This document shows, piece after piece, positions 6,803 through 33,428 of a stretch of DNA of 33,659 nucleotides (within the stretch, counting starts at the first letter, position 1; each line of letters opens with the position of its first letter). The translations under genes were made by a program, and so were the position numbers. The DNA comes from Nitrospira sp. (lineage in GTDB: Bacteria; Nitrospirota; Nitrospiria; Nitrospirales; Nitrospiraceae). The DNA lies in the NCBI GenBank assembly GCA_029865225.1, contig JAOUHJ010000033.1, forward strand, positions 1 to 33,659, written 5' to 3'. The notes under the pieces were generated by a model. The model worked only from the letters and a program-made list of their open reading frames with translations, was not told where the DNA came from and did not search any database.

Positions 6803-6816
6803 AGCGCCCTATATTA

Positions 6817-8064: not shown

Positions 8065-8356
8065 AATAGCCTGAGTAAGTATCTGCTAGCTTGGATGGTG
8101 CCCTCAATTCCGTCCGATTTCCGTCTCGCCGAATCGATCCCCCGGCATCCCCTCCACCCCATGCCGGATGACTGCTGTCGTGAGAAAGACATCCTGTCCA
8201 GCAGTTGTCGTGAGGCCTCTCGCCACGGCTTCCCACCGGATGGTTTCAACCCGGTCAATGGACTGGGAGGGATTCCGCAACCAGTTGAACGCTACTATTT
8301 CCTCGTTTCCCCATCTTGACCTTCCATCGCCCATAGTGTAACCATTGGTAACTTCC
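8065..8356. other. Intergenic region with one copy of a 44-bp repeat
   Basis: No gene is seen. Positions 8214-8257 match 6316-6359 in 36 of 44 bases (core GGCCTCTCGCCA-GGCTTC, then ACCGGA-GG-TTC). Open frames on the minus strand here have no ribosome site. Confidence 0.4.
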
Positions 8357-8746
8357 ATGTTGCCCCGTCAAGATATCACCAAAGGTCTCTACCTTCGTCT
8401 GGCTGCCTCCCGTTTTGGCTATCCGGCCGGTCTGATCGGAACCGTTCACACGACCGGCACCGATTGGTCAGGAAACTGGTACTTCCAACTTCGCTGGCTG
8501 AACCGGCCAACAGGCACACGACAGAGACCTGTAGCAGAATGGAGCCTCAACCTCCGTGACAAAGACCTTGAAGATTTCGAACGGATTGAGTCGTGGGAAC
8601 AGGTGCAGGAGCTCCTGAGGGAGTCGAGGCCTCAGCGCAAACCTAGGAGAAAGGCAAACAGGCGGCTCAGGTTTTCCAACCCTCTTGGGCGGGTTCTGAG
8701 AGGGAGAAAACACCCGAACCAGTTGAAGCTGTACGAATGGAGTTGA
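8357..8746 (+). CDS. Hypothetical protein, 129 residues
   Basis: I do not recognise the family. The first 90 residues look like a genuine folded protein: YLRLAASRFGYPAGLIGTVH, GNWYFQLRWLNRP, EWSLNLRDKDLEDFERIESW. The last 40 are very basic (RPQRKPRRKANRRLRF, GRVLRGRKH), so contact with nucleic acid is possible. ATG 8357 is used; no clear ribosome site precedes it, and a TTG at 8345 would add four residues. Confidence 0.5.
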   Translation: MLPRQDITKGLYLRLAASRFGYPAGLIGTVHTTGTDWSGNWYFQLRWLNRPTGTRQRPVAEWSLNLRDKDLEDFERIESWEQVQELLRESRPQRKPRRKANRRLRFSNPLGRVLRGRKHPNQLKLYEWS

Positions 8747-8817
8747 CGCAAGACACGAAACAACGCCGTGGCCTATCGCGCCTGGGTGCGCCCGGCTATC
8801 GTACCAACATTGTCCGC

Positions 8818-8988
8818 TTAGCCTTTTGCGGCGGCGGCTTCCTGTTGCTGGTCGATTTTCTGCGACAGTTCATGAACCATGCGAGTGAGCTCAAGGACCG
8901 CTTTGTAAGGGATGTCCGGATTGGTACTTTCTAGCTGTCTCAGTCGTAGCTCAAAGTCCTCGAGTCGTCTTGACAGTTTGCTCACCAT
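8818..8988 (-). CDS. Small helical protein, 56 residues
   Basis: The protein starts MVSKLSRRLEDFELRLRQLE and continues with VLELTRMVHELSQKIDQQQE and an alanine-rich tail (AAAAKG). Heptad spacing of Leu suggests a short coiled coil. ATG 8988 has a GGGAG site at a normal distance; the frame stays open upstream but that part looks random. It ends 71 bp from the end of the convergent gene at 8746. The next minus-strand small gene (9083-9253) lies just upstream, and the two may form a pair. The function is unknown. Confidence 0.55.
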   Translation of the reverse strand: MVSKLSRRLEDFELRLRQLESTNPDIPYKAVLELTRMVHELSQKIDQQQEAAAAKG

Positions 8989-9082
8989 ATCGAGCTCCCT
9001 TCGTTTAGGGAATGTCCCGCAGAGAATTTCGACTCCACATGGATTCATTGAACGACGCAGCAAGGGTATTGTCAAGCAGGGC

Positions 9083-9253
9083 TCACGCGTCTGTTCCCGT
9101 TTTGGGCATGGGAGGGAACCAGGGGATGCGGCTGGTATCGGGAAGGCCTTTGGCAAGATTCTTGTCGTCTCTCTTGGGACCGCCGAGGTTCCGAAGGCCC
9201 TTGCCCCTGCGCTTGACCACTCGACGCGGCTTGGAGGGTTTCTTGGTAGACAT
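9083..9253 (-). CDS. Small basic protein, 56 residues
   Basis: It starts MSTKKPSKPRRVVKRRGKGL and then reads RNLGGPKRDDKNLAKGLPDT with a proline-rich end. It is strongly basic at the N-terminus, which could bind nucleic acid or be disordered. There is no ribosome site before ATG 9253. Instead a TGGTATAAT extended -10 box ends 6 bp upstream, which would put transcription start on the ATG itself. The call rests on codon-like composition and this promoter and is tentative. Confidence 0.45.
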   Translation of the reverse strand: MSTKKPSKPRRVVKRRGKGLRNLGGPKRDDKNLAKGLPDTSRIPWFPPMPKTGTDA

Positions 9254-9259
9254 GTCTTG

Positions 9260-9268
9260 ATTATACCA
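9260..9268 (-). promoter_or_regulatory. Extended -10 promoter directly at the start of the small basic gene
   Basis: On the minus strand TGGTATAATCAAGACATG runs into the ATG at 9253. TATAAT is a perfect -10 and the preceding TG-G is an extended -10. Transcription normally begins about 7 bp after the box, which is the A of the ATG, so the mRNA would be leaderless. No good -35 is present at 17 bp, which fits an extended -10 promoter. Confidence 0.5.
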
Positions 9269-9461
9269 GGAAACCCGCAATACCAACGAACAAGAAATAT
9301 CTATTGTACGCACTGTCGCAAGTGAATAGACGAAGTTGTGGTGTCCGCCTGATGTCGGCAGGCTCTTGAACTGGTCTGGAAGATTTCTATTGTGAGTTTG
9401 AAACGCGTATCGTATCCTTACAGGCTACATGAGCCCCCTCACAAGAAAGGACCAATCATCC

Positions 9462-10148
9462 ATGTCATCCATGCGAATTCATATCCTCGGCCTAGCCACC
9501 GGGCTTTGTCTCCTGACGACTCCGGGGCTTGCTGCCTCGTCGGATCCATCCAACGATGATCAAAAGACCCTGTATGCGCTCGGATTGGCCATCAGCCAGT
9601 CGCTCGGAACCTTTTCCTTGAGCGAAGCCGAACTCGATATGGTCAAGAACGGCCTGACCGATGGTGTCCTCAAACGATCTCAAAAGGTCGATCTCCAAAC
9701 ATATGGACCAAAGATCCAATTGCTCCAACAGTCCCGCTTGGCCCTGGTCGCCGAGGGTGAGAAGAAGGCGGGTACCGCATTTCTCGCCAAAGCGGCTTCG
9801 GAAAAAGGTGCGACCAAGACCGAGTCCGGTATCGTCATCACCCCCATTAAGCCGGGTTCCGGGGCGACACCGAAGGCAACGGATACGGTCAAGGTGCATT
9901 ATCATGGCACATTAACCGATGGCACAGTGTTCGATAGCTCCGTCAAGCGAGGAGAACCCGCAACCTTTCCGCTTGGCAAGGTCATCAAATGCTGGACGGA
10001 AGGAGTGCAACGCATCAAGGTTGGTGGAAAAAGCAAGCTGATCTGCCCATCAAACCTAGCCTATGGTGATAGTGGTTCACCTCCGACCATCAAGCCTGGT
10101 GCGACCTTAGTGTTTGAGGTGGAGTTACTCGACATCGTCAAAGAATAG
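9462..10148 (+). CDS. FKBP-type peptidyl-prolyl cis-trans isomerase, secreted (FkpA/Mip-like)
   Basis: The protein has 228 residues. A signal peptide (MSSMRIHILGLATGLCLLTT then PGLAAS) is followed by a helical dimerisation region (residues ~25-115: LYALGLAISQSLGTFSLSEA, QLLQQSRLALVAEGEKK) and a C-terminal FKBP domain: VKVHYHGTLTDGTVFDSS, then GEPATFPLGKVIKCWTEGVQ, IPSNLAYGD-like SNLAYGDSG and TLVFEVELLDI. This is the FkpA/Mip/FklB layout of periplasmic folding isomerases. ATG 9462 has an AAAGGA site. An in-frame ATG at 9429 would add 11 polar residues and spoil the signal peptide. The active-site residues Tyr, Phe, Asp and Trp are visible. Confidence 0.9.
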   Translation: MSSMRIHILGLATGLCLLTTPGLAASSDPSNDDQKTLYALGLAISQSLGTFSLSEAELDMVKNGLTDGVLKRSQKVDLQTYGPKIQLLQQSRLALVAEGEKKAGTAFLAKAASEKGATKTESGIVITPIKPGSGATPKATDTVKVHYHGTLTDGTVFDSSVKRGEPATFPLGKVIKCWTEGVQRIKVGGKSKLICPSNLAYGDSGSPPTIKPGATLVFEVELLDIVKE

Positions 10149-14217: not shown

Positions 14218-14434
14218 TCGTCGCTCCTTTCAACGACAGTTCGGACATGTCCACCACATACTATAATTCGGGTGTCGTTCGTTCTGAAAGGGTGTCAGAA
14301 TGACCAGACACTCGTCGCGTACATCAACGGGAAGGGCGGCATCAAGTGATGCAAGAACTCTTGCAAGGTACAAACATGGGGCCTTATAGTCTCACGCGGC
14401 TCGGGTGCACCCTCAACGTTCTGAGCAAGGGCTG
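14218..14434. promoter_or_regulatory. Divergent intergenic region between the protease and the first SUMF1 gene
   Basis: About 215 bp separate the two divergent starts, so promoters for both should lie here. An inverted repeat lies near 14280-14310 (GTTCTGAAAGGGTG / CAGAATG). I see no clean -35/-10 pair. Confidence 0.3.
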
Positions 14435-15334
14435 ATGTCGAATCGTTTTGGCCGGTCTCTACACTCCATCGTTCTACTCTTCCTGATGACCGGCCCCGCT
14501 ATGGCAGAATCCGGGTCAAAGCCCACTCCGGACCTGGCCAAACACTTGGTGAGGATCGCAGATCTGGCTCGCCCGTCACCGATGGTCACGATTCCTGCCG
14601 GCCAGTTCTTGCTCGGCAGCAAGCGAATCGATGGTGATCCCTACGGGAAATGGACACAGTTCGACGACACGGAACTCCCTCAACAACCAGTCTGGTTGGA
14701 TGCCTACGAGATCGACCGAGATGAGGTCAGTCTCGGCGAATATCTGTCCTACCTCCAGCGGAAGAAACTCTATCCTTCCCCTGAGCTCCAGAAACTGATT
14801 TGGCACGTCATCACCGTTCATTTCGTGTCAGACCAGACGTTGGCCCGCTGGCCGGCACTCTATGTCACATGGTCCGAGGCACAGGGCTTCTGTGCGACCA
14901 AACGCGCAAGGTTGCCGACCGAAGCGGAATGGGAAAAGGCGGCACGCGGTCCAGAGGGCAACCTCTATCCGTGGGGCGACGCTGCCCCAAGTTCCACGCT
15001 GGCGATGTTTGGACAACATCATGTGCATGAAATCCCCATTTTGGCGGCCGTCGAGTCACATGATGAAGGGAGAAGCCCCTATGGCCTTCACCATATGGCA
15101 GGAAACGTCGCGGAATGGGTACAGGACTGGTTCGGTTTCGACTACTATGCCTATATGCCGGCCCGCAATCCGCAGGGTCCGACAACCGGACGCTATAAAG
15201 GCATTCGTGGAGGCTCCTGGAAAAGTAAACGAGTCATGCTCCGTACCGCGACGAGAGGTGGATCAGCCCCAGATCAACGTTCAGCGACGATCGGATTCCG
15301 GTGCGCACGTTCGTCTGTGTCCATGACCCCTTAA
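14435..15334 (+). CDS. Exported SUMF1-domain protein (FGE-like fold, no FGE cysteine pair), copy 1
   Basis: The protein has 299 residues. A signal peptide (SLHSIVLLFLMTGPAMAESG) is followed by a SUMF1 (formylglycine-generating enzyme fold) domain: PMVTIPAGQFLLGSKRIDGD, AYEIDRDEVSLGEYLSYLQR, CATKRARLPTEAEWEKAARG, GNVAEWVQDW, GIRGGSWKSKR, IGFRCARSS. The Cys pair used by true FGEs after the RGGS motif is not there, so sulfatase activation is unlikely. NirV (partner of copper nitrite reductase) and PvdO have the same fold. ATG 14435 is chosen (AAGG site); GTG 14405 is an alternative. It is the first gene of a plus-strand run (SUMF1, DUF4412, SUMF1). Confidence 0.88.
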   Translation: MSNRFGRSLHSIVLLFLMTGPAMAESGSKPTPDLAKHLVRIADLARPSPMVTIPAGQFLLGSKRIDGDPYGKWTQFDDTELPQQPVWLDAYEIDRDEVSLGEYLSYLQRKKLYPSPELQKLIWHVITVHFVSDQTLARWPALYVTWSEAQGFCATKRARLPTEAEWEKAARGPEGNLYPWGDAAPSSTLAMFGQHHVHEIPILAAVESHDEGRSPYGLHHMAGNVAEWVQDWFGFDYYAYMPARNPQGPTTGRYKGIRGGSWKSKRVMLRTATRGGSAPDQRSATIGFRCARSSVSMTP

Positions 15335-15433
15335 CCACCAGAAATCGCCCGAACACGAAGAGGCCCGCAGTCGATGGGAACGTCCAGATCACCCAGAAGA
15401 AAATGTGCAAACGTCTATGGTAGGATTTTTAAG

Positions 15434-16027
15434 ATGCGACAGATTGTCTTGGTCTTCAGCCTTACCTGTAGCCTGTTGCTTCTCGGTCCGAGAGGCTGGG
15501 CCTTGGAGTTTACCGCCGATCAGGTGACAAAAATCCAGGGCAAATTGCAGAAGGCGAACATTTATTACCGTGACACCATGTGGCGGATTGAGCACCACAC
15601 CATGGGCCCTGTCAATGTGAGTATCGTACGCAAGGATAAGAAGCTCGTGTGGCTGCTGCTGTCAAGGATGAAGCATTTCAAGACTGTCCCCTATAGCCCC
15701 GATCAAGATCTGAGGGTGACTGAGCAGTTGGACGGCGAAATATCACGGCAAGAAATCGGAACAGAAATGCGAGACGGGCATCCGACCATCCTCTATGAGG
15801 TTACAACTAAACACGGTGAACACATTGAAGAGTACTACCAGTGGCTGGCCACGGATATTCGTTTTCCCATGAAACTGGCCAAAAAGGACGGGAGTTGGAT
15901 TGTGGAGTATCACCATGTAAAAATGCGCCCGGTCTCGGACTACCTGTTCAATCTTCCGGTCAATTTTCAGCCCCTGGAAGGCTTCAACACCCTGCCACCC
16001 GAACAAACCGAACCAGACGTACACTAA
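15434..16027 (+). CDS. Exported DUF4412/LolA-like protein, copy 1
   Basis: The protein has 197 residues with a signal peptide (MRQIVLVFSLTCSLLLLGPR then GWALEF). The mature part is strand-rich and reads like a LolA-fold barrel: NVSIVRKDKKLVWLLLSRMK, ILYEVTTKHGEHIEEYYQWL, RFPMKLAKKDGSWIVEYHHV. The same layout (ligand-less barrel, then 'YYQW' and 'K...G.W..EY..') is seen in the minus-strand protein at 19303-19938, so the two are paralogues. DUF4412-type proteins are exported and may carry a lipid or bind a partner; the function is not known. ATG 15434 has a TAGGA site. The next SUMF1 gene starts 16 bp after the stop. Confidence 0.7.
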   Translation: MRQIVLVFSLTCSLLLLGPRGWALEFTADQVTKIQGKLQKANIYYRDTMWRIEHHTMGPVNVSIVRKDKKLVWLLLSRMKHFKTVPYSPDQDLRVTEQLDGEISRQEIGTEMRDGHPTILYEVTTKHGEHIEEYYQWLATDIRFPMKLAKKDGSWIVEYHHVKMRPVSDYLFNLPVNFQPLEGFNTLPPEQTEPDVH

Positions 16028-16043
16028 CCAAGGAGGATGGGCC

Positions 16044-16955
16044 GTGCGAGTTTCTGGAATCGTGGCGAGTACTGCGATCATAAGCATGATGGCTGTAACG
16101 GCAACGTATGCGTTGGACGTTGCGGATGTCGTCCGGCAATGGACTCCTGAAGGGAAACAACTGGCAGAGGAACGGGCCAAGCTGCCGGCTCACGACGAGA
16201 TGATCTTGATTCCGGCCGGCGAATTCCTCATGGGAAGCGATAAGAAGGTGGATCGCAACGCCTATCAAGCGGAATTTCCGCAGCGAAAGGTGTATTTGAA
16301 GGCGTACGAAATCGACAAGTTTGAAGTCACGACCGTCCAATTTTTAAAGTATGTCCTCGCGCACGATCATCCACCATTGATCGACTGGCAGTATGACGGC
16401 GGCAACTTCCAAGACACGATGTCGAGCCACCCCGTCATGCACGTATCGTGGGATGAGGCCGATGCCTACTGTCGTTGGGCCGGCAAACGCTTGCCGACCG
16501 AAGCCGAATGGGAAAAGGCCGCACGTGGTGAGGACGGACGCATCTATCCCTGGGGCAATCAGATGGCTGGATTATCACGAGCGAACTACGGCCGCACCGG
16601 CTTGTCAGGCCCCGTGCGGGATCGCCCCGAACGACTGTTGCTCTACCCACCGATTATTTCTGTCGATAAATATGACAATGCCGTGAGTCCATACGGCGTG
16701 TTTCAGATGTCCGGAAATGTGGCTGAGTGGGTAGCCGATTGGTATGACCGCAAGTACTATGCGACCGCGCCCGATAAGGATCCCATGGGGCCCGAAAAGG
16801 GAACGCAGCGAGGGTTTCGTGGCGGCAGCTGGATCGACAGCACGCCCAGCGTAAGAGTCGCACAGCGCAACGGGACCGACCCGAGCACGAAGATGAATTG
16901 GTTGGGGTTCCGCTGCGCCCGAGACGTGACGTCCGCTCCAGAACTTCAGAACTAA
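16044..16955 (+). CDS. Exported SUMF1-domain protein (no FGE cysteine pair), copy 2
   Basis: The protein has 303 residues. The GTG start at 16044 has a perfect AAGGAGG site. A signal peptide (VRVSGIVASTAIISMMAVTA then TYALDV) is followed by the SUMF1 domain: MILIPAGEFLMGSDKKVDRN, AYEIDKFEVTTVQFLKYVL, CRWAGKRLPTEAEWEKAARG, SPYGVFQMSGNVAEWVADW, FRGGSWIDSTPSVRVAQR and LGFRCARDV. No Cys is present after RGGSW, unlike real FGE. It is nearer to the NirV-type group than to sulfatase-activating enzymes. The stop lies 2 bp from the stop of the convergent copy 3. Confidence 0.9.
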   Translation: MRVSGIVASTAIISMMAVTATYALDVADVVRQWTPEGKQLAEERAKLPAHDEMILIPAGEFLMGSDKKVDRNAYQAEFPQRKVYLKAYEIDKFEVTTVQFLKYVLAHDHPPLIDWQYDGGNFQDTMSSHPVMHVSWDEADAYCRWAGKRLPTEAEWEKAARGEDGRIYPWGNQMAGLSRANYGRTGLSGPVRDRPERLLLYPPIISVDKYDNAVSPYGVFQMSGNVAEWVADWYDRKYYATAPDKDPMGPEKGTQRGFRGGSWIDSTPSVRVAQRNGTDPSTKMNWLGFRCARDVTSAPELQN

Positions 16956-16957
16956 GA

Positions 16958-17821
16958 TTACGGCGTGACTGGGCTCTCCGATGACTGTGGCATCGGAGCG
17001 TCTGTCGCGCAGCGAAATCCTGTCGACTCATTCCGAATGGTCGGATCGCTCTCTACCCGGGTAAAGATGCGGACGCTGGGCGTCTCGTTTTGCCACCCAG
17101 CACCTCGAATGACTTTTTTCGTTCCGGACCCCGGTCCTTTCGGGTTCTTAGGCGGGCTCTTCTCATAGTATCGAGGATCATACCAGTCGTTCACCCATTC
17201 CCAGACATTGCCGGCCATGTCGTACGCGCCATAGGGACTCTTCCCTGCCTCATAACTCCCGACGGGCATGAGGGTCTTCTCACCGATCCACCGTTGGTTG
17301 TAATTGAGATGTTTCGCCGTCGGTTCCACATTCCCCCATGGGAATCGTTTGTCGGACGTCCCTTTGGCTGCCTTTTCCCACTCTGCTTCCGTCGGCAGCC
17401 GTTTCCCTGCCCACGTACAGTATGCGTCTGCATCAAACCAATCGACGTTGATCACCGGCCGATCGGCAAGCGACTCCGTGATGCTGTCTCCTTGCCACAG
17501 ATTTCGCGTGGGATTCGTGGGATTCTGTGGCACGCGATGCCCGGTAGCCTTCACGAAGTCCAGATACCGGCCGTTCGTCACTTCAAATTTGTCGATTGCA
17601 AACGTATCGAGGAACACCTCGTGTCGTGGGTATTCATCCCGTCCCCCGTCTCGATCACCGGAGGGAACTCCCATTGGAAACGAGCCGGCCGGCACGACGA
17701 TCATTGGTGCGCCGTCTTTACCGGCGAGTACTGCACCTGATCCCTCAACCCCACCTCCATCTGCGAACGACAACGATACCCCGAGCACGACATATGACAC
17801 AATCAACGATCGCACCAACAT
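16958..17821 (-). CDS. Exported SUMF1-domain protein (no FGE cysteine pair), copy 3
   Basis: The protein has 287 residues. ATG 17821 has an AAGGAG site and starts a signal peptide (MLVRSLIVSYVVLGVSLSFA). An in-frame ATG at 17944 overlaps the stop of the HEAT gene, but the residues it adds spoil the signal. The SUMF1 domain is complete: MIVVPAGSFPMGVPSGDRDG, FAIDKFEVTNGRYLDFVKAT, CTWAGKRLPTEAEWEKAAKG, SPYGAYDMAGNVWEWVNDWY, VIRGAGWQNETPSVRIFTRV, STGFRCATD. The Cys pair is absent here too. It is the last gene of the minus-strand run that follows the multicopper oxidase. Confidence 0.9.
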   Translation of the reverse strand: MLVRSLIVSYVVLGVSLSFADGGGVEGSGAVLAGKDGAPMIVVPAGSFPMGVPSGDRDGGRDEYPRHEVFLDTFAIDKFEVTNGRYLDFVKATGHRVPQNPTNPTRNLWQGDSITESLADRPVINVDWFDADAYCTWAGKRLPTEAEWEKAAKGTSDKRFPWGNVEPTAKHLNYNQRWIGEKTLMPVGSYEAGKSPYGAYDMAGNVWEWVNDWYDPRYYEKSPPKNPKGPGSGTKKVIRGAGWQNETPSVRIFTRVESDPTIRNESTGFRCATDAPMPQSSESPVTP

Positions 17822-17936
17822 CGCAGCATACTCCTTCCCCGAGATCGACCACGACTGCACCGTACCATAGTCTTGGAACGGAACGCTGGGTCTACTCGCT
17901 CTGGACACAACACAGAAGCCACACACACGTTTGCAT

Positions 17937-19295
17937 CTAGTCATTCACGGCAAGCAGGCTGAGCAGTGCGCCACCCGCGGTCGCCCGAACCGCATCATCC
18001 TCATCGTGGAGACTCTGTTTGAGTATTGGAATCGCACGCGAGCCTTCGACCTTCGTCATCGACTTGACCGCTGCAATTCTCACGCGGGATACCGTGTCTT
18101 GAATCAGCAGCATCAACGCCGATCGTGCCGGTGCTCGATTGGCCCCTCCGGCATGGCCCAACGCCCTTGCCACCGCGGCACGAATCGCCGGTTCCTTCAT
18201 ATTGATCAGATCCAGAACAGAATCGGCTACCACCTCGTACCGTTCGCCCTGTTCTAACAAGGCTCCGATCACAAAGGCTCTGACAGCGTTGTCACGATCG
18301 CCGAGCGCCTGGGTCAAGGGAGGACTGGCATTCAAACCCTGCAATTGTCCTAAACTGACCGCAGCGGCAATTCGCACCGGGGGGAGAGGATCCCTCAGTA
18401 AACGGGTGAGCGTGGTCAGTGCCTCCTCCGAAGGGACACGTCCAAATCCTGTTGCGGCGGCGCCGCGCACCGATGGTTGTTTGTGCTCGCTTGCCTCCTT
18501 GAGAATCGGAACAACCTGCGTCGGCTGACGTTCCATCAACGCACGAATAGCCGAAGTTCGTTCATCGGGATTGGGCGCTCGGGCATAGCGCAAGAGCAGG
18601 TCACAACCGTTCGGACGTTTCAGATGGCAGAGGACCTCGGCGGCCGCCACCCGCACACGCACCTCAGGGTCCTTGAGCGCCGGTTCAACCAGTGACAATA
18701 CCGAAGCATCGTTAGATTTTGTAAACCCCTTGAGCACCGCTTCCTTCACCAACACGGCCTGGTCCTCCAAGGCCTGCCTAAATTTTGGAGACCGTCGACC
18801 AGCATCGAGTTTGGCAAGTCCCTCGGCAGCCAAGGCCCGGACAAGACCGGATCCATCACTGAGTCCATCCTCGAAAAATGGAACCGCGTCGGCGCTCTGC
18901 CATTCTTTCAGGGCCGTAAAGGCTGCCCCTCGCATCTGCTCACGCATATCCTTGGTAAGGACGACGACGAATCCGAGTGCGACCTCCCGCAGCGTAGGAG
19001 TTTCATCCTGTTTCGACACCTGAACGAGCTGGTCATATTCACTTAACGCATCCTTGGGCTTACCAAGCCTCAGCAATGTCCGAACCTTCAGCCGACACAT
19101 ATCCGCTGTACTGGCTTCCTCACTGTTGAGCTTGTTCAGCTCTTCAAGTGCCTTTTGGAATTCCTTGTTGTCGTACAAAGTGTGGATCGACTGCAGATCG
19201 GCTTCAGTCCCGCTCCATGTCGGTTCGAGCATGGGGGAGACAAACCAGACCAGCCCACATACAACACCTGCAGCCCGTCGAAGAAATCGGTTCAT
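17937..19295 (-). CDS. Exported TPR/HEAT-repeat protein
   Basis: The protein has 452 residues. The signal peptide is MNRFLRRAAGVVCGLVWFVS then PMLEPTWSG. Residues ~30-90 form a TPR-like region (IHTLYDNKEFQKALEELNKL, LRLGKPKDALSEYDQL). From ~110 to the end come about ten HEAT repeats of 30-31 residues with the usual 'DPxxxVRxAAAxALG' pattern: LKDPEVRVRVAAAEVLCHLK, LRDPLPPVRIAAAVSLGQLQ, IKQSLHDEDDAVRATAGGAL-like end. Such scaffolds bind partner proteins. ATG 19295 lies 8 bp after the stop of the DUF4412 gene, with a GAGGAG site that overlaps that stop, so coupled translation is likely. A periplasmic scaffold for the copper-oxidase complex is a reasonable inference. Confidence 0.85.
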   Translation of the reverse strand: MNRFLRRAAGVVCGLVWFVSPMLEPTWSGTEADLQSIHTLYDNKEFQKALEELNKLNSEEASTADMCRLKVRTLLRLGKPKDALSEYDQLVQVSKQDETPTLREVALGFVVVLTKDMREQMRGAAFTALKEWQSADAVPFFEDGLSDGSGLVRALAAEGLAKLDAGRRSPKFRQALEDQAVLVKEAVLKGFTKSNDASVLSLVEPALKDPEVRVRVAAAEVLCHLKRPNGCDLLLRYARAPNPDERTSAIRALMERQPTQVVPILKEASEHKQPSVRGAAATGFGRVPSEEALTTLTRLLRDPLPPVRIAAAVSLGQLQGLNASPPLTQALGDRDNAVRAFVIGALLEQGERYEVVADSVLDLINMKEPAIRAAVARALGHAGGANRAPARSALMLLIQDTVSRVRIAAVKSMTKVEGSRAIPILKQSLHDEDDAVRATAGGALLSLLAVND

Positions 19296-19302
19296 CACTT
19301 CT

Positions 19303-19938
19303 CTACTCCTCACGCCCCTGGTTCATCCCACCAGGGCGCTTTCTATATCCCGGAGGCTTCTCAAAATATCGGGTGGATTGAGGTGACAGGCGAATTCGCT
19401 CATACTCGAATGACCAATTACGGTCCTGACTGACCAGCTTGAGGACCACCCCAATCTCTACGTCGACCCATTCATAAAATCGTTCATGAAGACCTTGCCG
19501 TTCCACCTGTACATCAAATAATAGCGCGGCCCGACCCGCCACGGCCGCATCACCGACGGCGGTTCTGCTTGTTTCTCCAGCGAGCTCCGCGCGCATCGAC
19601 AGAGTGTCATCCGTGATCGGCAGAACCAGGAGCTGCTTCTGTTGGGGAAGGACGTACCACCGCTCACCTAAATCAGGCCTGATGATTTCGATCGCCGAGA
19701 ACCCCAGCTCGGTTCGAATGGCGTACTTATACTCCAATCTCAGTCGATCACCCTTTGCGAAGACCTGCGCCTGATACTTCTTGCCGTCGACCCGCTTGAC
19801 GAGCGTACCGGAAAATTCAGCCTCGGCAGGAACCGTATCGTTACCTTCGGCGAGGGGAAGGGTCGTACTCAGCGCGACGACCCCGACCAACGCAATCATA
19901 CTCGACCTGTATGTCATCCTTGGAAGAGACGGATGCAT
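19303..19938 (-). CDS. Exported DUF4412/LolA-like protein, copy 2
   Basis: The protein has about 211 residues with a signal peptide (SMIALVGVVALSTTLPLAEG). The barrel part reads AEFSGTLVKRVDGKKYQAQV, LRLEYKYAIRTELGFSAIEI, RWYVLPQQKQLLVLPI, FDVQVERQGLHERFYEWVDV and LVSQDRNWSFEYERIRLSPQ. It is a paralogue of the protein at 15434-16027; the 'HE.(F/Y)Y.W' and 'K..W..EY..' stretches align. An alternative start is ATG 19917. It begins 6 bp after the stop of the cupredoxin-like gene and 8 bp before the HEAT gene, inside a tight operon. The function is unknown. Confidence 0.7.
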   Translation of the reverse strand: MHPSLPRMTYRSSMIALVGVVALSTTLPLAEGNDTVPAEAEFSGTLVKRVDGKKYQAQVFAKGDRLRLEYKYAIRTELGFSAIEIIRPDLGERWYVLPQQKQLLVLPITDDTLSMRAELAGETSRTAVGDAAVAGRAALLFDVQVERQGLHERFYEWVDVEIGVVLKLVSQDRNWSFEYERIRLSPQSTRYFEKPPGYRKRPGGMNQGREE

Positions 19939-19944
19939 CGGTCA

Positions 19945-20868
19945 TCAACGCTGGTGTTCGAGCAATGGCTGGATATCGACCGAATACCCTAACGATTCGA
20001 GACCAAATCGTGGATTATCGAGGATTTTATACGCGGTTCGATTCCCTCTAGGAGCCGGCAATGTCAGTTGCTCGACAAGTGTTCCATCCGGCTGCACCAC
20101 GACCGACTTCGTGGTCCCGGGTCCCGTCTGAGGATGCCAGACGACCAATTGATAGGTACCGGGAGGAATCTGGTCGATCTTGAATTTTCCTTCGGCATCA
20201 GTCAACGCATAGTACGGGTTGTTCACGGCCATGGCCCAACTTTCCATGTAGGCATGAAACCCACACTGCATGTAGAAGGTGCGTCGACCTTTATTGAGAT
20301 AAATCGGCCCGACCAACGATTTTCCCGGGGCATGGTTGTGCAACGCATGGAGATCCCCACGCCGATGCTGATAGTTCATGACCAGCGGAGTATTGAACAG
20401 CACACGAGCTCCCGCTTCCAACGAGGTCTCATAGCCTTGAATGTCGTGCATGACCGGATCCATGTTGATCACTTCCACCGCATGCCCGTTCCGGACGACC
20501 GTCATAAATGGCTGAAACATACAGTCCCGAGCCTCGATCAACGGAACCGACACCTCAAACGGCTTTCCTGACTCAACCCCTTCCAAGAGGACAATGGCAT
20601 CCTTCAACCCGCCTTGATGGCCGACGATAAAGTCATGCAGCAGACGCCACCCCCGTCCGTTCGATATACGCCCACAGTAGGCAGGATCGGGAAAGGTAAT
20701 GAGATTGAACGCCTTCGGCTCCGGTACCGATCCATCGAGTGTAATTGTCCCTTCGATCGTTCCCCCATGGGTGATCTCCACAACATCGTACGAACGCGCA
20801 GGCACGGTCCCCAGCACCCACGCGAGGAGCCCACAAACGACGATAACCAACCTGCCCTTACCGCTCAT
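19945..20868 (-). CDS. Exported cupredoxin-like protein with a C-terminal carboxypeptidase-regulatory-like domain
   Basis: The protein has 307 residues. ATG 20868 follows GAGGTGAGGGAC. A signal peptide (GRLVIVVCGLLAWVLGTVPA) leads to a beta-sandwich (TITLDGSVPEPKAFNLITFP). The cupredoxin part is in residues ~100-230: NGHAVEVINMDPVMHDIQGY, HALHNHAPGKSLVG and FYMQCGFHAYMESWAMAV. The His of MHDI plus Cys, His and Met of CGFHAYM fit a blue-copper (type 1) ligand set. The tail reads TDAEGKFKIDQIPPGTYQLV then VWHP, which resembles the carboxypeptidase regulatory-like (CarboxypepD_reg) fold. It stands after a terminator and a TATAAT box, and leads the run to DUF4412, HEAT and SUMF1. It may carry electrons to or from the large oxidase. 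Confidence 0.78.
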   Translation of the reverse strand: MSGKGRLVIVVCGLLAWVLGTVPARSYDVVEITHGGTIEGTITLDGSVPEPKAFNLITFPDPAYCGRISNGRGWRLLHDFIVGHQGGLKDAIVLLEGVESGKPFEVSVPLIEARDCMFQPFMTVVRNGHAVEVINMDPVMHDIQGYETSLEAGARVLFNTPLVMNYQHRRGDLHALHNHAPGKSLVGPIYLNKGRRTFYMQCGFHAYMESWAMAVNNPYYALTDAEGKFKIDQIPPGTYQLVVWHPQTGPGTTKSVVVQPDGTLVEQLTLPAPRGNRTAYKILDNPRFGLESLGYSVDIQPLLEHQR

Positions 20869-20959: not shown

Positions 20960-20998
20960 GAGGGGGGAACCATGCCTTTCTAGCACGGCTCCCCCCTC
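20960..20998. terminator. Strong bidirectional terminator after the multicopper oxidase gene
   Basis: The arms GAGGGGGGAACCATGC and GCACGGCTCCCCCCTC (one mismatch) fold over a 7-base loop. On the minus strand a T-run (GCTTTTT) follows; on the plus strand ATTTTT follows. It lies 31 bp after the oxidase stop at 21029, so the oxidase transcript should end here, with any read-through feeding the downstream run. Confidence 0.75.
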
Positions 20999-21028: not shown

Positions 21029-24000
21029 TTACTTCATCGCCGTTGGAACTGCTTGAGGCTGATCATCCGCATCCGCATGTTTGGAGCCAACTCCACCAGC
21101 GGTCAACGGCTGTAGCCTCTTATCCCCAGCCGGCAACACCCTCATATATCCCCACTGCCCAGACTGAGAGTACGGCAACCGCTGGTTGCTATACACATAG
21201 TCCCCAGGCATCCGGTACGGGCCACCGGCTGATGGGATAAAGGCATCGAGCGTTTCAGAACCTGAGAATTCTACGACACTGATCTGATCAGCTCCACGCA
21301 TGAACGGTTCGATCGGCCACTCATGTTTTTCGACGCTGAACATGCCGTTCTGTTCGTTATTGGCGCCGATGACATGGATGCGCACCGGATCACCGGCATG
21401 CGATTCAATGATCGGGGTCTCTGGATCTTCAGGCTTATCCGCCTTACAAGGCTGGAACATCTTACCCAGCGAACACCCCTGGTCTTCGCGGAACAGGTAC
21501 GGCTCGGACCGGTAGTTGATTCCGGTCAAGCCCGCGACGTTCTGCACATACGGCATGAAGCTCGTGCCGATGATGTTATCCTCGTCCTGGAAGAACAAGG
21601 CCACATCGCGGTAGTTCGGACGCATCTCGTTTCCAGGTATGGACCTGTCCACGATCACGTCGGCCGCCCAGGCATTCTTGTTCGACAGATCGACGCCCGT
21701 TTTGGGATCGCGGTACTTTGACCCCTTCGGACCCACCACGATCGCGCCGAACAGGCCGTTCCTCGGATTCGTCATCACATTGCCCCAGTCCCAGACGAGT
21801 GAGGTCGTCTCACCGTTGAACGGATCGGCATAGTACGTGTAGACCCGTTCGCCGCCTGGAGCAATCGTCTGATCACCAGGATTCTTCCCGACATTGGCCC
21901 CCATGGAATCCTTCGGATCGAAGGCGAGCCCGATCGCGGAGAATGAGGCTTTACTGTCCTTCATCTTGTTCTTCAGATTCACCTTGACGCAGTCCCCAAC
22001 GTTCACCCGAAGGGTCAACGGCATGGGTCTGGTATTCCCGGATACTTTCGCCACATCGTCTTCCAGCGCATAAATCTTTGCATCCGGATTGGCGAGCTGT
22101 ATCTTTCGCTCAAAATCGACCTCGATGGCTTCCGGTGCCTTCGGATTGAAGGTCATCGACGGATAGTCCATCGCGACGACGTTGAAGCTCTTGACCGGAG
22201 CATCGGCAGGACACACCGGCAAGGCCTCCGGAATCTCACCTTTGTTCGAGAATCCAGCAGGCAGTTTCTTCAGATCCTTTTGCTCCTTATCATAGACCCG
22301 CACAATGCCCCATCCACCTTCGGACAGCTTCGACGACCTGCCATTGAAGTGGATATAGTCGCCGGGTTGATGCCGTGGGCCACCGGCCTCCGGTACAACC
22401 AAGTCATACCGTTCTGCAATGCCCACATGGATGGAGTTCTTGCGGTTCGCATCGGGTGCATACCGCTCTGTCCAGAACGAATGGCCGGACAAGGTCCAGG
22501 TCATCGTTTCGTTCATCAGCGTATGCAACAGTCTGAACACCATCGTGTCACCCGTATACGCCCTCAACAGCGGCGTATAGGGATCCCCGTGAATTTGACT
22601 GTTGAAAATCTGAGACACATCCGGATTTGTCGCCAACCGTTGTGCGATCGGTCCGGCACGGAAGTTCAGCCCGCTTCCTGTGGTATGTGTCCCACCGTTC
22701 AAGAACGGCATCGGAGTCATGTAAATCTTTTCAGGCATGACGAAAGAGACGGTCTTCCCTGCCTCTAGCGCCACTTCGATCGGTTGCCCCGGCGGATTCC
22801 CGGCCGTGACGATGTTGACCGTGTGTGGCACCGTATCATGCACTTGAACCATAAGCTCACGGAAGCTGTTGTTCACACCATGGCCCACCGGCTCGTTGGT
22901 ATGAATATCCGCAATGGGACCGCTCCGGATCTGCTTCCCGGTCGTCGGATCATGATAGGTCGACCCCACCGGTTCAGCGATAAACGTCCCGAACCCACCA
23001 TGTGGCCAAGTCGTCGCACCGAACGCGTGATCATGCCAAAACACCGTCCCCACGTCCGCATCCACCCAGAACCGTTGACGGACAAACTCAACCGTCACGA
23101 TGTCCTTCGCCGGGTGATCGTGCTTCAACCCCTTTGATAGCGTGATTTGGTTGCCTTTGATCGCCTTAATACGTGAAATCTCGTTCCCTTTCACGTTATC
23201 GGCACCGACCATGATCAAGGTTCCCACGTGATACTGCTTGGCGTTCTTCACTGAAATGGTCTTGGACCCCTTCTTCACCGCAGAGGTCAAGACCGTGTTC
23301 ATCGGGACGGGAAGTCCTTTTTGGTTCTTCTTCTCCAGCATGGTGAAGGGACGAACCGACTGTTCATAGGAGAACCCGGTGATCACCCCATCCGATGCTT
23401 GGTTATCGAACTGCAGGAAATGCCAGTGCGTGTTGATCTTCGACGCCTGGAAGTTCGTGTAGTCGTCGTCGTCCCACTCACTGGTTAAGGTCCAATCCAC
23501 ACAATCATAGATGTTGCCACGCACGACCAACGGATACTTGAGGTCATCGTTGGCGCGAATGGCCGCTTCCTCTTCGTGCAACACGTAAATCAACCCATTC
23601 GGATCGACCACCGCAGGCTCCTTCCCTTGAGCCTTGGCAATCTTAATCGGCACCCTGATGAAATGGACGTTGAAGTTCTTCCGGCCTGCATTCTCCGGAC
23701 AGAGGCTCCAATTCCCCTGCTCTCCGGGCTTGGCTTGGTCGAGGCTCTCCTCACCATTGTCGTCGCGGCGGATCATCTCCAACCATGGCGCTCCGACGTG
23801 ATTCGGGGAGAACATGACACGCTTCCCAAAGTGCGGGGTGAGATGCGGCCAGGCTACCTTGCCTGTCAGCGGCTCGAACATGATCGGATGCCGCTTTCCA
23901 GGATGGGTCGACGTATATTTAGGATTCTTGACATCACTTTCCTTCTCACTCATGGCGCGATTACCGTCCCACACCCAATCCAACACGGTCGCGTCATAAG

Positions 24001-25864
24001 AAAGAATCTGGCCCTTCTCGTCATCCTTATGGCCAGGCTTACCGGGCGGTGGCAACTGCATCGCAACCCAGTCCTTGATCGTAATCGTGGCCGGGTTCCC
24101 CTTCCAATTGCTCTTGCCCTTCTCAATGATCTTGAACTGCGTCCCGAACCAATCCACTGTTTGGCCGATCAGCTTGTCTGATGAGATCGGCGCCTTGATG
24201 CGACCTTTCCGATCCGGAAGCTCTCGCAGATCCGGCATCACGTCATTTCGCATCTCACCCTGCTGGATCGTGTTGTACACGCGCCAATAGCCCCACATAC
24301 CGGACACATAGTGATGCGCCACATGGCAGTGGAAGAGGAAATCGCCAGCCAGCTGTTGGCAGAGACCGGACCCGCACTCGGTTTCCAGGTCCAAGGCCTC
24401 CGATGGGCCGATGACCTCGACGTCGACACGATCTGTCTTGTGACGGATCACCGGGTACTTCACCGGGCCGTTGACTGCCGTAGCCCAGAGGTTCATGTCA
24501 TCGATGGCCCGAGGACTCCTCGGCCAGCGAATCGACCCTCCATGCGGGTGATGGCTATGAAACACTTCCGACCCGCCATGGACAAGACGGAATTTTGCCG
24601 GGTCTCCGATATAGGAACGAGGGATGGTCGGAGCAGCGTCGCCGAAGGTATAGGAACTATAGCCCATCGACTCGTCCTCGAACCCAAAGTATTCGTGCTG
24701 CAGGTGCATGTTGTTGATGCCGAACGGCTCACTTCGGTAATTGATCGCGCGGCCGCCTGGACGATAGGTATCCGTCAACGGATCACGTTGAGGCAGGAAA
24801 TCGCCCTTCTTATTGAGAGGGCGGAAGGCTTCGTCCCCGACCTCATGGTAATACAAGACGAATTCACGAAAGTCAGGGCCGGTACCATTCTTGATCATAA
24901 CCTGCCAGCCGCTGGTCGCCGGAGTCGGATCACCACTTCCCAGCGCTTCCCAGTACGTGGACCCACGAGGCTCCACGACGAAGGACCCGAACATGCCCAT
25001 CACGGTGAGCTCACGATCGTTGCTGTAGGTATGGAACTGGCGCACCCCTTCTTGGGTGTTGGGATGGATATACCATTCCATTTCCACGGACTTGTCTTTG
25101 GTCGCCACGGCATCAGAATTGGTCGTGGTGGCCGCAGCACCGGTCTTGCTGATCACCATCGCCGAGCCATGAATGTGGAGGCTGACATCCTCGTCACCCT
25201 CCATCTTGTTGCTCAGCTTGATCTTGAGACAATCTCCCTGATTGGCACGGATCGTGAGCGGCTGAATCCACTGCGCTTGCACGCCAGGTAGGACGGCTCC
25301 TGGATCAAAGCCCTCCTTGTCCCGCGCTTCACGGTTTGCGGTTTCTTCGGCTCGAACCTTGTCGATATCTTCATCCAGCACATACATGTAGCCAGGATAA
25401 AAATCGAGCCACTGGTTGAGCGTGATCTCAACGTTGATCGCGGAGACATTGTACTGCTTCACGGGCGCAGTCGCTGGACACCGGCCTCCCCCGGTCGCGG
25501 CCACTGGTTCCACCCGAGGGTCGGACATGAGCAACATATCCTGGCCGCCGGCTCCATACTGGTGCATCATGGCCGAGGTGTTGTACATGCCGGTATTCAC
25601 CGCCTGTACCTGCGGATCCTTGGACATCTGGTCCATGATGCGCTGGTGTTGCTGCTCGACCATCGCAGCGCGATCGGCCTTTCCCGACATCGCGTCCTCG
25701 ACGATCGTCTGTCCCTTGAGCTGCTCCGCCCAACCCGGCAACTGGTGGTTCATTGCCACGGACGTTGATGGGGTTTCTGCAAATACGAGTGAACTCCCAA
25801 AGAGAGTCACACAGGCGGTGAGCCCAAGCATACGGGCACACACGGAGCGGGAATGTGAAAACAT
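21029..25864 (-). CDS. Giant exported multicopper oxidase, six-cupredoxin-domain type
   Basis: The protein has 1611 residues. ATG 25864 has a perfect AAGGAGG site. A signal peptide (residues ~1-35, ending SSLVFAET) is followed by three repeated modules of two cupredoxin domains, each opening with a 'CP...A..FNV' strand. Module 1 (~110-560) has LHIHG (~230), FHSHHPHGG and HCHVAHHYVSGMW (~513), a full type 1 Cys site with His and Met. Module 2 (~700-1170) has INTHWHFLQF (~811) and FWHDHAFGATTWPHG (~942), but its third motif is lost. Module 3 (~1180-1600) keeps the fold (VWDWGNVMTNPRNGLFGAIV) but lost all copper His. So one blue copper and one trinuclear site shared between modules are expected, as in ceruloplasmin-like and MnxG-like six-domain oxidases. 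The substrate is unknown. Confidence 0.85.
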   Translation of the reverse strand: MFSHSRSVCARMLGLTACVTLFGSSLVFAETPSTSVAMNHQLPGWAEQLKGQTIVEDAMSGKADRAAMVEQQHQRIMDQMSKDPQVQAVNTGMYNTSAMMHQYGAGGQDMLLMSDPRVEPVAATGGGRCPATAPVKQYNVSAINVEITLNQWLDFYPGYMYVLDEDIDKVRAEETANREARDKEGFDPGAVLPGVQAQWIQPLTIRANQGDCLKIKLSNKMEGDEDVSLHIHGSAMVISKTGAAATTTNSDAVATKDKSVEMEWYIHPNTQEGVRQFHTYSNDRELTVMGMFGSFVVEPRGSTYWEALGSGDPTPATSGWQVMIKNGTGPDFREFVLYYHEVGDEAFRPLNKKGDFLPQRDPLTDTYRPGGRAINYRSEPFGINNMHLQHEYFGFEDESMGYSSYTFGDAAPTIPRSYIGDPAKFRLVHGGSEVFHSHHPHGGSIRWPRSPRAIDDMNLWATAVNGPVKYPVIRHKTDRVDVEVIGPSEALDLETECGSGLCQQLAGDFLFHCHVAHHYVSGMWGYWRVYNTIQQGEMRNDVMPDLRELPDRKGRIKAPISSDKLIGQTVDWFGTQFKIIEKGKSNWKGNPATITIKDWVAMQLPPPGKPGHKDDEKGQILSYDATVLDWVWDGNRAMSEKESDVKNPKYTSTHPGKRHPIMFEPLTGKVAWPHLTPHFGKRVMFSPNHVGAPWLEMIRRDDNGEESLDQAKPGEQGNWSLCPENAGRKNFNVHFIRVPIKIAKAQGKEPAVVDPNGLIYVLHEEEAAIRANDDLKYPLVVRGNIYDCVDWTLTSEWDDDDYTNFQASKINTHWHFLQFDNQASDGVITGFSYEQSVRPFTMLEKKNQKGLPVPMNTVLTSAVKKGSKTISVKNAKQYHVGTLIMVGADNVKGNEISRIKAIKGNQITLSKGLKHDHPAKDIVTVEFVRQRFWVDADVGTVFWHDHAFGATTWPHGGFGTFIAEPVGSTYHDPTTGKQIRSGPIADIHTNEPVGHGVNNSFRELMVQVHDTVPHTVNIVTAGNPPGQPIEVALEAGKTVSFVMPEKIYMTPMPFLNGGTHTTGSGLNFRAGPIAQRLATNPDVSQIFNSQIHGDPYTPLLRAYTGDTMVFRLLHTLMNETMTWTLSGHSFWTERYAPDANRKNSIHVGIAERYDLVVPEAGGPRHQPGDYIHFNGRSSKLSEGGWGIVRVYDKEQKDLKKLPAGFSNKGEIPEALPVCPADAPVKSFNVVAMDYPSMTFNPKAPEAIEVDFERKIQLANPDAKIYALEDDVAKVSGNTRPMPLTLRVNVGDCVKVNLKNKMKDSKASFSAIGLAFDPKDSMGANVGKNPGDQTIAPGGERVYTYYADPFNGETTSLVWDWGNVMTNPRNGLFGAIVVGPKGSKYRDPKTGVDLSNKNAWAADVIVDRSIPGNEMRPNYRDVALFFQDEDNIIGTSFMPYVQNVAGLTGINYRSEPYLFREDQGCSLGKMFQPCKADKPEDPETPIIESHAGDPVRIHVIGANNEQNGMFSVEKHEWPIEPFMRGADQISVVEFSGSETLDAFIPSAGGPYRMPGDYVYSNQRLPYSQSGQWGYMRVLPAGDKRLQPLTAGGVGSKHADADDQPQAVPTAMK

Positions 25865-26147: not shown

Positions 26148-26813
26148 TCATTGGCTGATTGGACCCTTGCGGGTCATGGTGCTCTGGAGATCCATTTCGA
26201 GCACGACCGGACCATCACGTTTGCCGGAATCACGCTGCCGCGGCATCTGATCCGCCATGAGCTTCTCCAAAGGAACCGCTACAATGAGTGGCGCCTCGTC
26301 CGAAGAACTGGAATGGAGGAAAAGACGGAGCGTCTTGGGCCGTTCTTTGGGAGCGATCTGCGAAGCCATATTCTTTTCAATAAACCCTACCAACAATCCA
26401 CTCCCATCGGCAAGTTTATGGATCTCATAGGCATTCGGTACGCTCGCAACCCGTTCCAACGCCAGATCAGGACTCTGGGTCACCAACACCAACCCAAGGG
26501 CGGGCGGTTGGATGAACCCAAAGCTCCCGATTGGTGCCTCTGAGAACCGCATCGTCCCAGCGTGGAGTTCCGTGACTCCGGTCTTCGCACGTAACTGCCG
26601 CCGCAGCTCCGCTTCACTTCCGGTCGTCTCAATCACCACCGCCGCCGGTGCGGCTTTCTGAACAGGCAAGACCTCCGTCTTACCACCGGGTGCAGCGTCA
26701 ACACCAATCGGGCTGAACATCCCATTCGCAAACCCTACCAGCGTCAGCATAATCAAAAGAATGCGCTGGCTGATGTGAGATGATGTACCGGAAGCAAAAG
26801 CATGACAGAGCAT
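26148..26813 (-). CDS. Exported protein of unknown function upstream of the oxidase
   Basis: The protein has 221 residues. ATG 26813 has a GAGGAG site. A signal peptide (QRILLIMLTLVGFANGMF) is followed by a basic, alanine-rich region and a beta-rich part (IGSFGFIQPPALGLVLVTQS, SGLLVGFIEKNMASQIAPKE, KTLRLFLHSSSSDEAPLIVA). I do not recognise the family. The same direction and a 283-bp gap to the oxidase suggest a possible accessory role, but its transcript may be separate. Confidence 0.6.
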   Translation of the reverse strand: MLCHAFASGTSSHISQRILLIMLTLVGFANGMFSPIGVDAAPGGKTEVLPVQKAAPAAVVIETTGSEAELRRQLRAKTGVTELHAGTMRFSEAPIGSFGFIQPPALGLVLVTQSPDLALERVASVPNAYEIHKLADGSGLLVGFIEKNMASQIAPKERPKTLRLFLHSSSSDEAPLIVAVPLEKLMADQMPRQRDSGKRDGPVVLEMDLQSTMTRKGPISQ

Positions 26814-27082
26814 AAAGTTCTCCTCGGGCGAACCTGAACAAGACGGCAATCACTTTGGATTTTAGGAAACGCGATCGGGAAAAAGCAAACAGAGGGTTCG
26901 TTCGTGAGGGTTATCGATTATGCCTTCTTAATTGGTGTTCTCGCCCTAGTGCAAGCGTGGTCGCGTCGCGGCGCCAGTCATGTTCGCTTTTCGGCAAGAC
27001 CGCCGTAGTTCATCACGCTTGCGATATCGCCATATCCTTGATACTGCTGCACGATATCGGGCAAACAGCGCGTGAGGTGCGT
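26814..27082. other. Intergenic region
   Basis: No convincing gene. A short frame from about 26905 (VRVIDYAFLIGVLALVQAWS, ending ARPP) has one hydrophobic stretch and could be a tiny membrane peptide, but evidence is weak. The start of the Uma2 relic has a GAGG site at 27074. Confidence 0.3.
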
Positions 27083-31430: not shown

Positions 31431-33428
31431 TCATCGCACATACCACGACCGCATCGGACCAACCATCACAGGCACCACATCGCTCACATCAACACAGCAC
31501 CGATACACCTTTCTGGCCTGCACAAAGACTTGCTTGGGGTTAAAGCATGTCATCTTCATATCCCAGCAATCGGAGTCTGGGCGGCCGATCGGACTCCGTT
31601 CCACTTCAATCGTATCGAGCTCCATATCATCCTTTATGGCTTCTTTAAAAATCTCACTAACTTGATACACATTCGTGGCTGCATAGTTGATTGCTCGGTG
31701 TTGCGGCGTCACACCTAGATTCCGGATTTCCTCATACACACGACGGAGAAAGTTGGCAATGGCTTGTGCTTTCACGCCGTACTCATCTTTCTCCTTTTGC
31801 GGCGCTTTATCTTGAGGCGGAGTCCCACAAATAGTCTGAACGAGCGCCGTGGTGTTCCAACTGTACATGCCGCGCAAAGCCGGATAAATGATCGGCACGA
31901 CCTGACCAGTGAATAGCCTGGCGTTTGCGGCGATATACCCAGGAATCGAGACTCGCTCGACTTCGCCCTTGGCCTGGTCTCCAAGAAATTCACACAGCCG
32001 CTGACAGATCGCGCTTGCAAATCCCCCCTGAGCTTGTACGGCATAGATCGGCGTAGCATCCAAATTGAGAGTCCAAAGAATTGCAGCCGCGTCCCACGGA
32101 TTGTCTTTGAGATAGGTCAAGAGCTGGAGAGGGTCGTGGGGATTAGCCGGCTGCTTCATGTGCTGCATAATGGAATCGCGGCGCGCCTCGGTGCCAAAAT
32201 CATAGCCGAGTTGTCCGAAAGCGAATACGAGTTGCTTTGGCGCCGTACCTCCACACTCACAAGCAGCGGCTTTAACATTGCTGGGACTTATTGACCCCTG
32301 CGGGGCCAGGACTTCTTCCTTCTGCGTACTCATAGTGCTTCCCGAAGGTTGTTTTTCCATAGCCGTATCCACTGCCCCATTTTCAAAAGACGCGGCTTGC
32401 ACCTGCGCTGAAGGCGGTTGCCGTGCAGTCGCCATCTCAGTAGAACTTGAGTCCTTCTCGTCCGGACTGGTTGCCGTTGTACTGTTTGTTTCCGACATGA
32501 CGTTCTTTCCTCCTCTGATTTGCCGCATGGCTCCTTTGATATTTAGCCGACCAGCAAGGAGTCGCCGACAATCTGATACTGGTTGTTCATCACATCCTAT
32601 TGCAGTCTTCAGAATCGCTGCTCGTACGGCCTGAGCATCAGGTTTTTGCCCAAGCTTGAGCTGTAGGCTCAACATCAGTGCTGCAACTCCCGAAACTATA
32701 GGTGTCGCATAACTGGTCCCGCTGGTGGCACCAACACCTCCTCCGGGAATAGCCCCTTGAATATTTTCTCCAAGTGCCAAGACGCCTTGTGCCTGATATG
32801 GCTTCCCCCAATTACTGAAACCCATTGGTTCACCTTGCGCATTCATCGCTCCCACAGCCAATACCGATGGCAACGCACCTGGAATATGCAGACACTCGCA
32901 ACCTTCGTTCCCCGCTGCGGCCACGATGAGAACGCCACGGTTCGCACAATCCTTGATCGCATCAGCGAGTAGAGGGTGAGCCGTGCCAGAGGGGGTAAGC
33001 TCACCACCGCTGATGTTGACAATGTGCGCGCCCGCTTGAACAGCTTGACCAATCGCCCGTGCAAGGTCGACCTGTGAACAAGGAGCAATAGAGCCCGCAT
33101 CCCCATCCTTGAAGACCGGGATAACCACGCCTCTGCAACGAGGCGCAATGCCCTTAACAGGTCCATCATGATGTCCAAAGATGACACTGGCGATATGGGT
33201 ACCATGCTGTGAGGCTGGGCCATGATCTGCTTCTCCCGAAACTAGCGTCTCAATTCGAGTAAGATCAGCGCGAGCGAGGCTCGTATGCGACTGGTCAACT
33301 GAACCATCGAGAATCGCAATGCAAATGCTGGAATCACCTAACGTTTCCCCCCAGAGCTCATTGAGGCCGGGAATTTCCATGTTCGCAATGGGTGACTGCT
33401 GAATAGGCTTGCTCCCAACCGACTGCAC
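31431..33428 (-). CDS. PatA/PatG-family subtilisin-like maturation protease
   Basis: The protein has 665 residues. The GTG start at 33428 follows an AAGGAG site. A subtilase (S8) domain fills residues ~20-280: Asp41 (CIAILDG), His75 (QHGTHIAS), Asn174 (AAAGNEG) and Ser239 (ATSGTSYATP). A Ser/Thr/Gln-rich linker (~310-375) follows. From ~385 to the end is the C-terminal domain of the PatA/PatG cyanobactin maturation proteases: FAFGQLGYDFGTEARRDSIM, NPHDPLQLLTYLKDNPWDAA, WTLNLDATPIYAV, GEVERVSIPGYIA and RPDSDCWDMKMTC to RSWYVR. In cyanobactin pathways such proteases cut precursor peptides. No signal peptide is seen. It precedes a peptide gene by 27 bp. Confidence 0.88.
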   Translation of the reverse strand: MQSVGSKPIQQSPIANMEIPGLNELWGETLGDSSICIAILDGSVDQSHTSLARADLTRIETLVSGEADHGPASQHGTHIASVIFGHHDGPVKGIAPRCRGVVIPVFKDGDAGSIAPCSQVDLARAIGQAVQAGAHIVNISGGELTPSGTAHPLLADAIKDCANRGVLIVAAAGNEGCECLHIPGALPSVLAVGAMNAQGEPMGFSNWGKPYQAQGVLALGENIQGAIPGGGVGATSGTSYATPIVSGVAALMLSLQLKLGQKPDAQAVRAAILKTAIGCDEQPVSDCRRLLAGRLNIKGAMRQIRGGKNVMSETNSTTATSPDEKDSSSTEMATARQPPSAQVQAASFENGAVDTAMEKQPSGSTMSTQKEEVLAPQGSISPSNVKAAACECGGTAPKQLVFAFGQLGYDFGTEARRDSIMQHMKQPANPHDPLQLLTYLKDNPWDAAAILWTLNLDATPIYAVQAQGGFASAICQRLCEFLGDQAKGEVERVSIPGYIAANARLFTGQVVPIIYPALRGMYSWNTTALVQTICGTPPQDKAPQKEKDEYGVKAQAIANFLRRVYEEIRNLGVTPQHRAINYAATNVYQVSEIFKEAIKDDMELDTIEVERSPIGRPDSDCWDMKMTCFNPKQVFVQARKVYRCCVDVSDVVPVMVGPMRSWYVR

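Follow-up and report, generated by a model that had tools for sequence, protein, structure and literature searches.

The genome of a Nitrospira (4.1 Mb in 169 contigs) encodes a 1611-residue multicopper oxidase, and the question raised by this locus is where such a protein would hold its copper and what it would oxidize. Nitrospira are dominant nitrifiers, and work on sand filters suspects manganese oxidation by them without a proven enzyme. The window analyzed here is the whole stretch of 33,659 nucleotides that contains the gene. Our preferred reading, with a probability of about 0.55, is an exported six-domain oxidase of the MnxG kind, in which a single type-1 copper and a trinuclear cluster would reduce O2. 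Its substrate would most likely be a metal ion, with Mn(II) as the first candidate, as in the nearest characterized relative, MnxG.

Gene, modules and the insert in domain 3

The six-domain, MnxG-like oxidase is encoded at positions 21029-25864 of the minus strand, which is also the strand of all parts of this gene and of the hairpin and the four genes that follow it. An earlier note had given this reading frame and its length of 1611 residues correctly, with the strand omitted. The ATG at 25864 stands a few bases 3' of AGGAGG, a good ribosome-binding site, and the frame remains open upstream to a TTG at 25900. The plus strand across the same positions is packed with stops. Orthologues diverge by about 0.09, 0.04 and 0.45 at the first, second and third codon positions, and because the differences fall mainly at third positions, this is a genuine coding gene under strong purifying selection. 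A Sec signal peptide is predicted at about residues 1-29 (25778-25864), as judged by eye from the translation.

The three repeated modules that had been read from the sequence are borne out by BLAST self-similarity (modules 1 and 3, 5e-16; modules 2 and 3, 2e-16; modules 1 and 2, 6e-6). In the translation a similar CP..A..K.(F/Y)NV segment opens each of them. The protein therefore consists of six cupredoxin-type domains. Among solved structures, MnxG is the one strong relative (PDB code 9bxa; phmmer 1.9e-77, family profile 1.3e-168). This entry, described as a mutant in a type-1 ligand (H340A), is also the top Foldseek match (3.5e-11). From self-similarity and alignment to 9bxa, module 1 comprises domains 1 and 2 (about residues 129-575, positions 24140-25480; 9bxa 8-377), while module 2 comprises a long linker and domains 3 and 4 (about residues 576-1190, positions 22295-24139; 9bxa 444-782). 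Module 3, delimited by self-similarity, holds domains 5 and 6 and is without a copper ligand set (21032-22294).

The profile alignment to 9bxa is interrupted in domain 3, where positions 588-699 correspond to 444-555 and positions 786-844 to 557-615 of the structure. The extra stretch of about 86 residues (about 839-924) separates the ligand motifs L1 and L2, which are 131 residues apart here and 46 in Priestia MnxG. Together with the model described below, the gap and the spacing place the insert within residues 839-928 (23081-23350). MnxG is without it, the paralogues of Nitrospiria have it in common, and Streptomyces has it in a shorter form. An AlphaFold run on residues 140-1190 with 17 sequences gave a pLDDT of 40.6 and was discarded. 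With residues 343-985 and 64 sequences, domain 3 and the insert folded and domain 2 did not. In that model residues 853-928 form a small domain with a pLDDT of about 82-96 over most of its length. It matches the phage tail tube protein 9n71 (Z 11.2, 2.2 Å over 75 residues), which ranks above MnxG itself. The model thus suggests a small β fold of phage-tail type. A role in surface binding or subunit contact would be a guess. A search of viral contigs gave no relative.

Predicted copper sites

Conservation of the ligands was scored in an alignment of 87 rows, one of which is masked with X at L4. Motif L3, HSHHPH (residues 436-441, positions 24542-24559), contains the predicted type-1 ligand H436 and the trinuclear ligands H439 and H441, conserved in 86-87 of the 87 rows. 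Motif L4, HCHVAHHYVSGM (residues 512-523, positions 24296-24331), provides H512 and H514 for the trinuclear centre and C513, H518 and M523 for the type-1 site, in 86 of 87 rows. Motifs L1, HWH (H813 and H815, positions 23420-23428), and L2, HDH (H944 and H946, positions 23027-23035), both in domain 3, are present in all 87. The ligand positions are also kept in Priestia MnxG and in proteins of Streptomyces and Halalkalicoccus.

These conserved ligands support the prediction of a single type-1 site made of H436, C513, H518 and M523 in domain 2, as well as of a single trinuclear centre split between domain 2 (H439, H441, H512 and H514) and domain 3 (H813, H815, H944 and H946). The predicted mononuclear copper is confined to domain 2. 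The geometry of copper would follow from the sequence and from homology to 9bxa. Thus ligand conservation agrees with the earlier note on one trinuclear site between modules 1 and 2, or more precisely at domains 2/3, on one blue copper, and on a copper-free third module, which has no ligand set in the 87-row alignment. There the segment ASFSAIGLAF, itself conserved, occupies the place of an HxH motif. No second set of L1-L4 is present, so that two complete trinuclear centres are absent on sequence, and no ligand was lost through alignment error.

The HIH of domain 1 (H230-H232, positions 25169-25177) is a different case. All motifs quoted in the note are present, but this one is not tenable as a copper site. 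H230 is kept in 60 and H232 in 66 of the 87 rows, so that roughly one quarter to one third of the rows have lost the motif; each of the twelve ligands of the trinuclear centre (eight) and the type-1 site (four) is kept in 86-87. The HIH pairs with FHTYS, without an HxH partner motif. It is best described as vestigial in this alignment, with no conserved ligand. In addition, the essential HxxHxH of module 1 (H436-S-H-H439-P-H441) was missing from the list of motifs. The ceruloplasmin or hephaestin type, with a trinuclear site at domains 1/6 and type-1 sites in domains 2, 4 and 6, was rejected, as neither domain 4 nor domain 6 has a ligand set in the 87-row alignment and domain 1 is without an HxH motif at L2.

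In the proposed mechanism, the substrate would hand over single electrons to the type-1 copper in domain 2. The electrons would then pass along the Cys-His path to the trinuclear cluster at domains 2/3, where the reduction of O2 to water would take place. The other domains, 1 and 4-6, would form a copper-free scaffold. The gene, its modules, the ligands with their conservation, the homology to MnxG and the neighboring genes are direct observations; export, copper loading, the direction of electron flow and the substrate are what we infer.

Neighbouring genes and paralogues

A gene for a predicted blue-copper-like protein with a CarboxypepD_reg domain (Pfam, C-terminal) is located at 19945-20868, in a frame open to 20973. 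It follows the oxidase gene in 39 of 41 close loci, defined by an oxidase at least 78% identical, and one to three such genes occur per locus. Residues H176, C237, H240 and M243 (ORF numbering) are conserved across 45 close homologues and a further 55 that are more distant, and the protein may accordingly be a copper binder by its sequence. A hairpin resembling an intrinsic terminator, with a 17-pair stem and a T run, lies directly 3' of the oxidase gene (20960-20998), and a GC-rich hairpin is also visible there in most of 24 loci inspected. Joint transcription of the two genes is doubtful because this hairpin stands between them.

This partner gene raises the possibility that the oxidase works in the periplasm as an O2 reductase fed by the blue-copper-like protein and not by a metal ion, serving electron overflow or O2 scavenging. 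We consider this a minor possibility. It is favored by the conserved H, C, H and M ligands of the predicted type-1 protein, by its regular place after the oxidase in one to three copies, and by a paralogue of about 73% identity beside nxrA-nxrB, described below. It is weakened by the terminator-like hairpin and by the fact that accepting electrons or carrying copper would be equally conceivable roles of the partner.

Three further genes follow. A putative exported LolA-like protein (19303-19938), assigned by eye and without a match in Pfam or NCBIfam, is found in 27 of 32 close loci, and a HEAT-repeat protein (17937-19313; Pfam 7.5e-62) in all 32. A formylglycine-generating-enzyme-like protein (16958-17944; Pfam FGE-sulfatase, 9.5e-62) is linked in part of the loci only. 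It belongs to a cluster (14405-17944) next to the oxidase gene region that is duplicated in part and contains three such genes and a second LolA-like gene. A 233-residue exported protein with no family match (26148-26849, minus strand) is directly upstream of the oxidase in some loci: 3 of 36 close ones and 5 of 16 in the group of 72-78% identity. Elsewhere in the window, a transposase-like ORF (4018-5868, plus strand; IS256-like by eye) lies near a tRNA-Ser at 6115-6207. A subtilase resembling cyanobactin-maturation proteases of the PatA/PatG family is encoded at 31431-33428 on the minus strand (712 bits, above the cut-off), and a partial homologue of it lies near an oxidase paralogue in another locus (L002).

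Almost all sampled genomes of Nitrospiria encode members of the oxidase family, and there are usually several copies. Homologues occur in 57 of 59 near relatives; the exceptions are the order-mates G041 and G053, the latter only 71% complete. Of 198 phylum members sampled, 67 have a homologue, 65 of them within the class Nitrospiria, and the unmatched genomes listed are all outside this class. Orthologues are 89% identical in N. moscoviensis and 85% in N. defluvii (L023). Most genomes have two or more paralogues. The window genome itself encodes one of 69% identity (contig C69), and also a 1993-residue MnxG relative (L107:6299-12280, on contig C120 of this genome, G000) that scores 904 bits to the NCBIfam model NF041487 and is closer to Pseudomonas MnxG than the window oxidase is. 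The tree of the whole family has a midpoint root, and the branches leading to Priestia, Streptomyces and Halalkalicoccus are long; we therefore relied on its placements within Nitrospira alone.

The distance between the paralogue of about 73% identity and an nxrB-type gene is about 4 kb in G232 and G198, and in G055 it is about 7 kb. The order in G198, with names assigned by eye, is nxrA, nxrB, a small membrane protein, a sigma-54-type regulator, a NirK-like protein and the giant oxidase. At L159:4998-16991 a giant oxidase paralogue adjoins nxrA-nxrB and a NirK-like gene; a long opposite-strand ORF in this locus (5298-9773) was rejected as spurious.

Possible substrate and comparison with known oxidases

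Mn(II) is the leading substrate because enzymes of the MnxG type oxidize it (PMC5622069, PMC11930936) and Nitrospira is associated with manganese removal in filters. In P. putida lacking both mnxG and mcoA, formation of Mn oxide is abolished (PMC11930936), and in sand filters, Mn removal is associated with the abundance of Nitrospira and with MnxG genes (PMC12070406). Several observations argue against the preferred reading. The best NCBIfam match of the oxidase, MnxG NF041487 (a model of 1894 positions), reaches 135 bits and so misses by far the equivalog cut-off of 3100. The same genome contains the closer relative of Pseudomonas MnxG. The MnxE/F partners are absent: in tblastn with the two small Priestia proteins encoded upstream of mnxG, the window gave nothing and there was one weak match elsewhere (E 0.07). 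It is also important to note that in the nitrifier families examined Mn oxidation had not been demonstrated and the function awaits tests (PMC11995701). Moreover, the oxidase is nearly universal in Nitrospiria, which suggests housekeeping and not specialized formation of minerals.

Protection from reactive oxygen by making Mn(III) is an improbable role. It has been proposed for the MnxG-like oxidase in the NXR cluster of Nitrospina and Nitrospira, in organisms without superoxide dismutase and catalase (PMC3578206). That proposal is speculation based on genomes only. Oxidation of Fe(II) or Cu(I) for metal detoxification is of similarly low probability. Metallo-oxidase activity is common among multicopper oxidases, which is in its favor, and no copper-resistance genes were recognized beside the oxidase in the window, which is not. 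The algal ferroxidases are six-domain homologues with the trinuclear site also at domains 2/3 (PMC3600357), again a point in favor. Little credence is given to a broader picture, in which the oxidase and blue-copper genes would be a multi-paralogue module defining Nitrospiria, for extracytoplasmic electron flow linked to Mn(II) or nitrite; one paralogue would be connected with nitrite oxidoreductase, and a domain of phage-tail type would have been grafted on close to the trinuclear site. A nitrogen compound as substrate, which the note had allowed, in an enzyme of the NirK kind is practically negligible: many NirK chains appear among the Foldseek matches, since domain 3 is a cupredoxin, and a NirK-like gene adjoins a paralogue, but 9bxa scores far better and the complete set of eight conserved trinuclear histidines, lacking in copper nitrite reductase with its type-1 and type-2 sites, points to O2 reduction. 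For the MnxG-like reading, the twelve ligand residues and the conserved partner gene make the question of substrate directly testable.

Several large oxidases can be compared with this protein. MofA of Leptothrix and OmpB of Geobacter are large metal-linked multicopper oxidases (PMC5566968), likened here by description. With regard to the MofA system, no CxxCH, and thus no mofC-like cytochrome c gene, was found in the window ORFs of at least 100 residues, and peptidyl-prolyl isomerases (compare mofB) lie about 9-11 kb from the oxidase gene, without the mofB linkage. The MnxG-like oxidase that has been reported for the NXR cluster in Nitrospina and N. defluvii, highly conserved in the latter (PMC3578206), is probably the paralogue of about 73% identity beside nxrAB in G198. 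The window gene is a different paralogue, with a cupredoxin, LolA-like and HEAT neighborhood.

Such genes in Nitrospira and Nitrospina have thus already been mentioned. Our additions are the near-universality in Nitrospiria with paralogues, one of them beside nxrAB, the downstream blue-copper-like gene, the absence of MnxE/F, and the insert. The size and layout are not supported as novel. In every bacterial six-domain oxidase analyzed in 2013, the trinuclear site lies at domains 2/3 and domain 2 alone has a mononuclear site; the lengths listed run from 1217 to 2681 residues, with 1941-1970 for Pseudomonas (PMC3600357). The copper map in the note is therefore right but not new, and the size ordinary for the superfamily. 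The claim that the protein is larger than MnxG-type enzymes is valid for the Bacillus type (1217-1228 residues) and fails for Pseudomonas MnxG (1944-1970 residues; PMC3600357, Appendix), which shares superfamily and size class with the window oxidase. MnxG of Bacillus sp. PL-12 (9bxa; 1217-1227 residues) has the same six cupredoxin domains and the same copper ligand positions at domains 2/3 as the window oxidase. However, its sequence is only distantly similar, its linker is shorter, and it works with MnxE/F.
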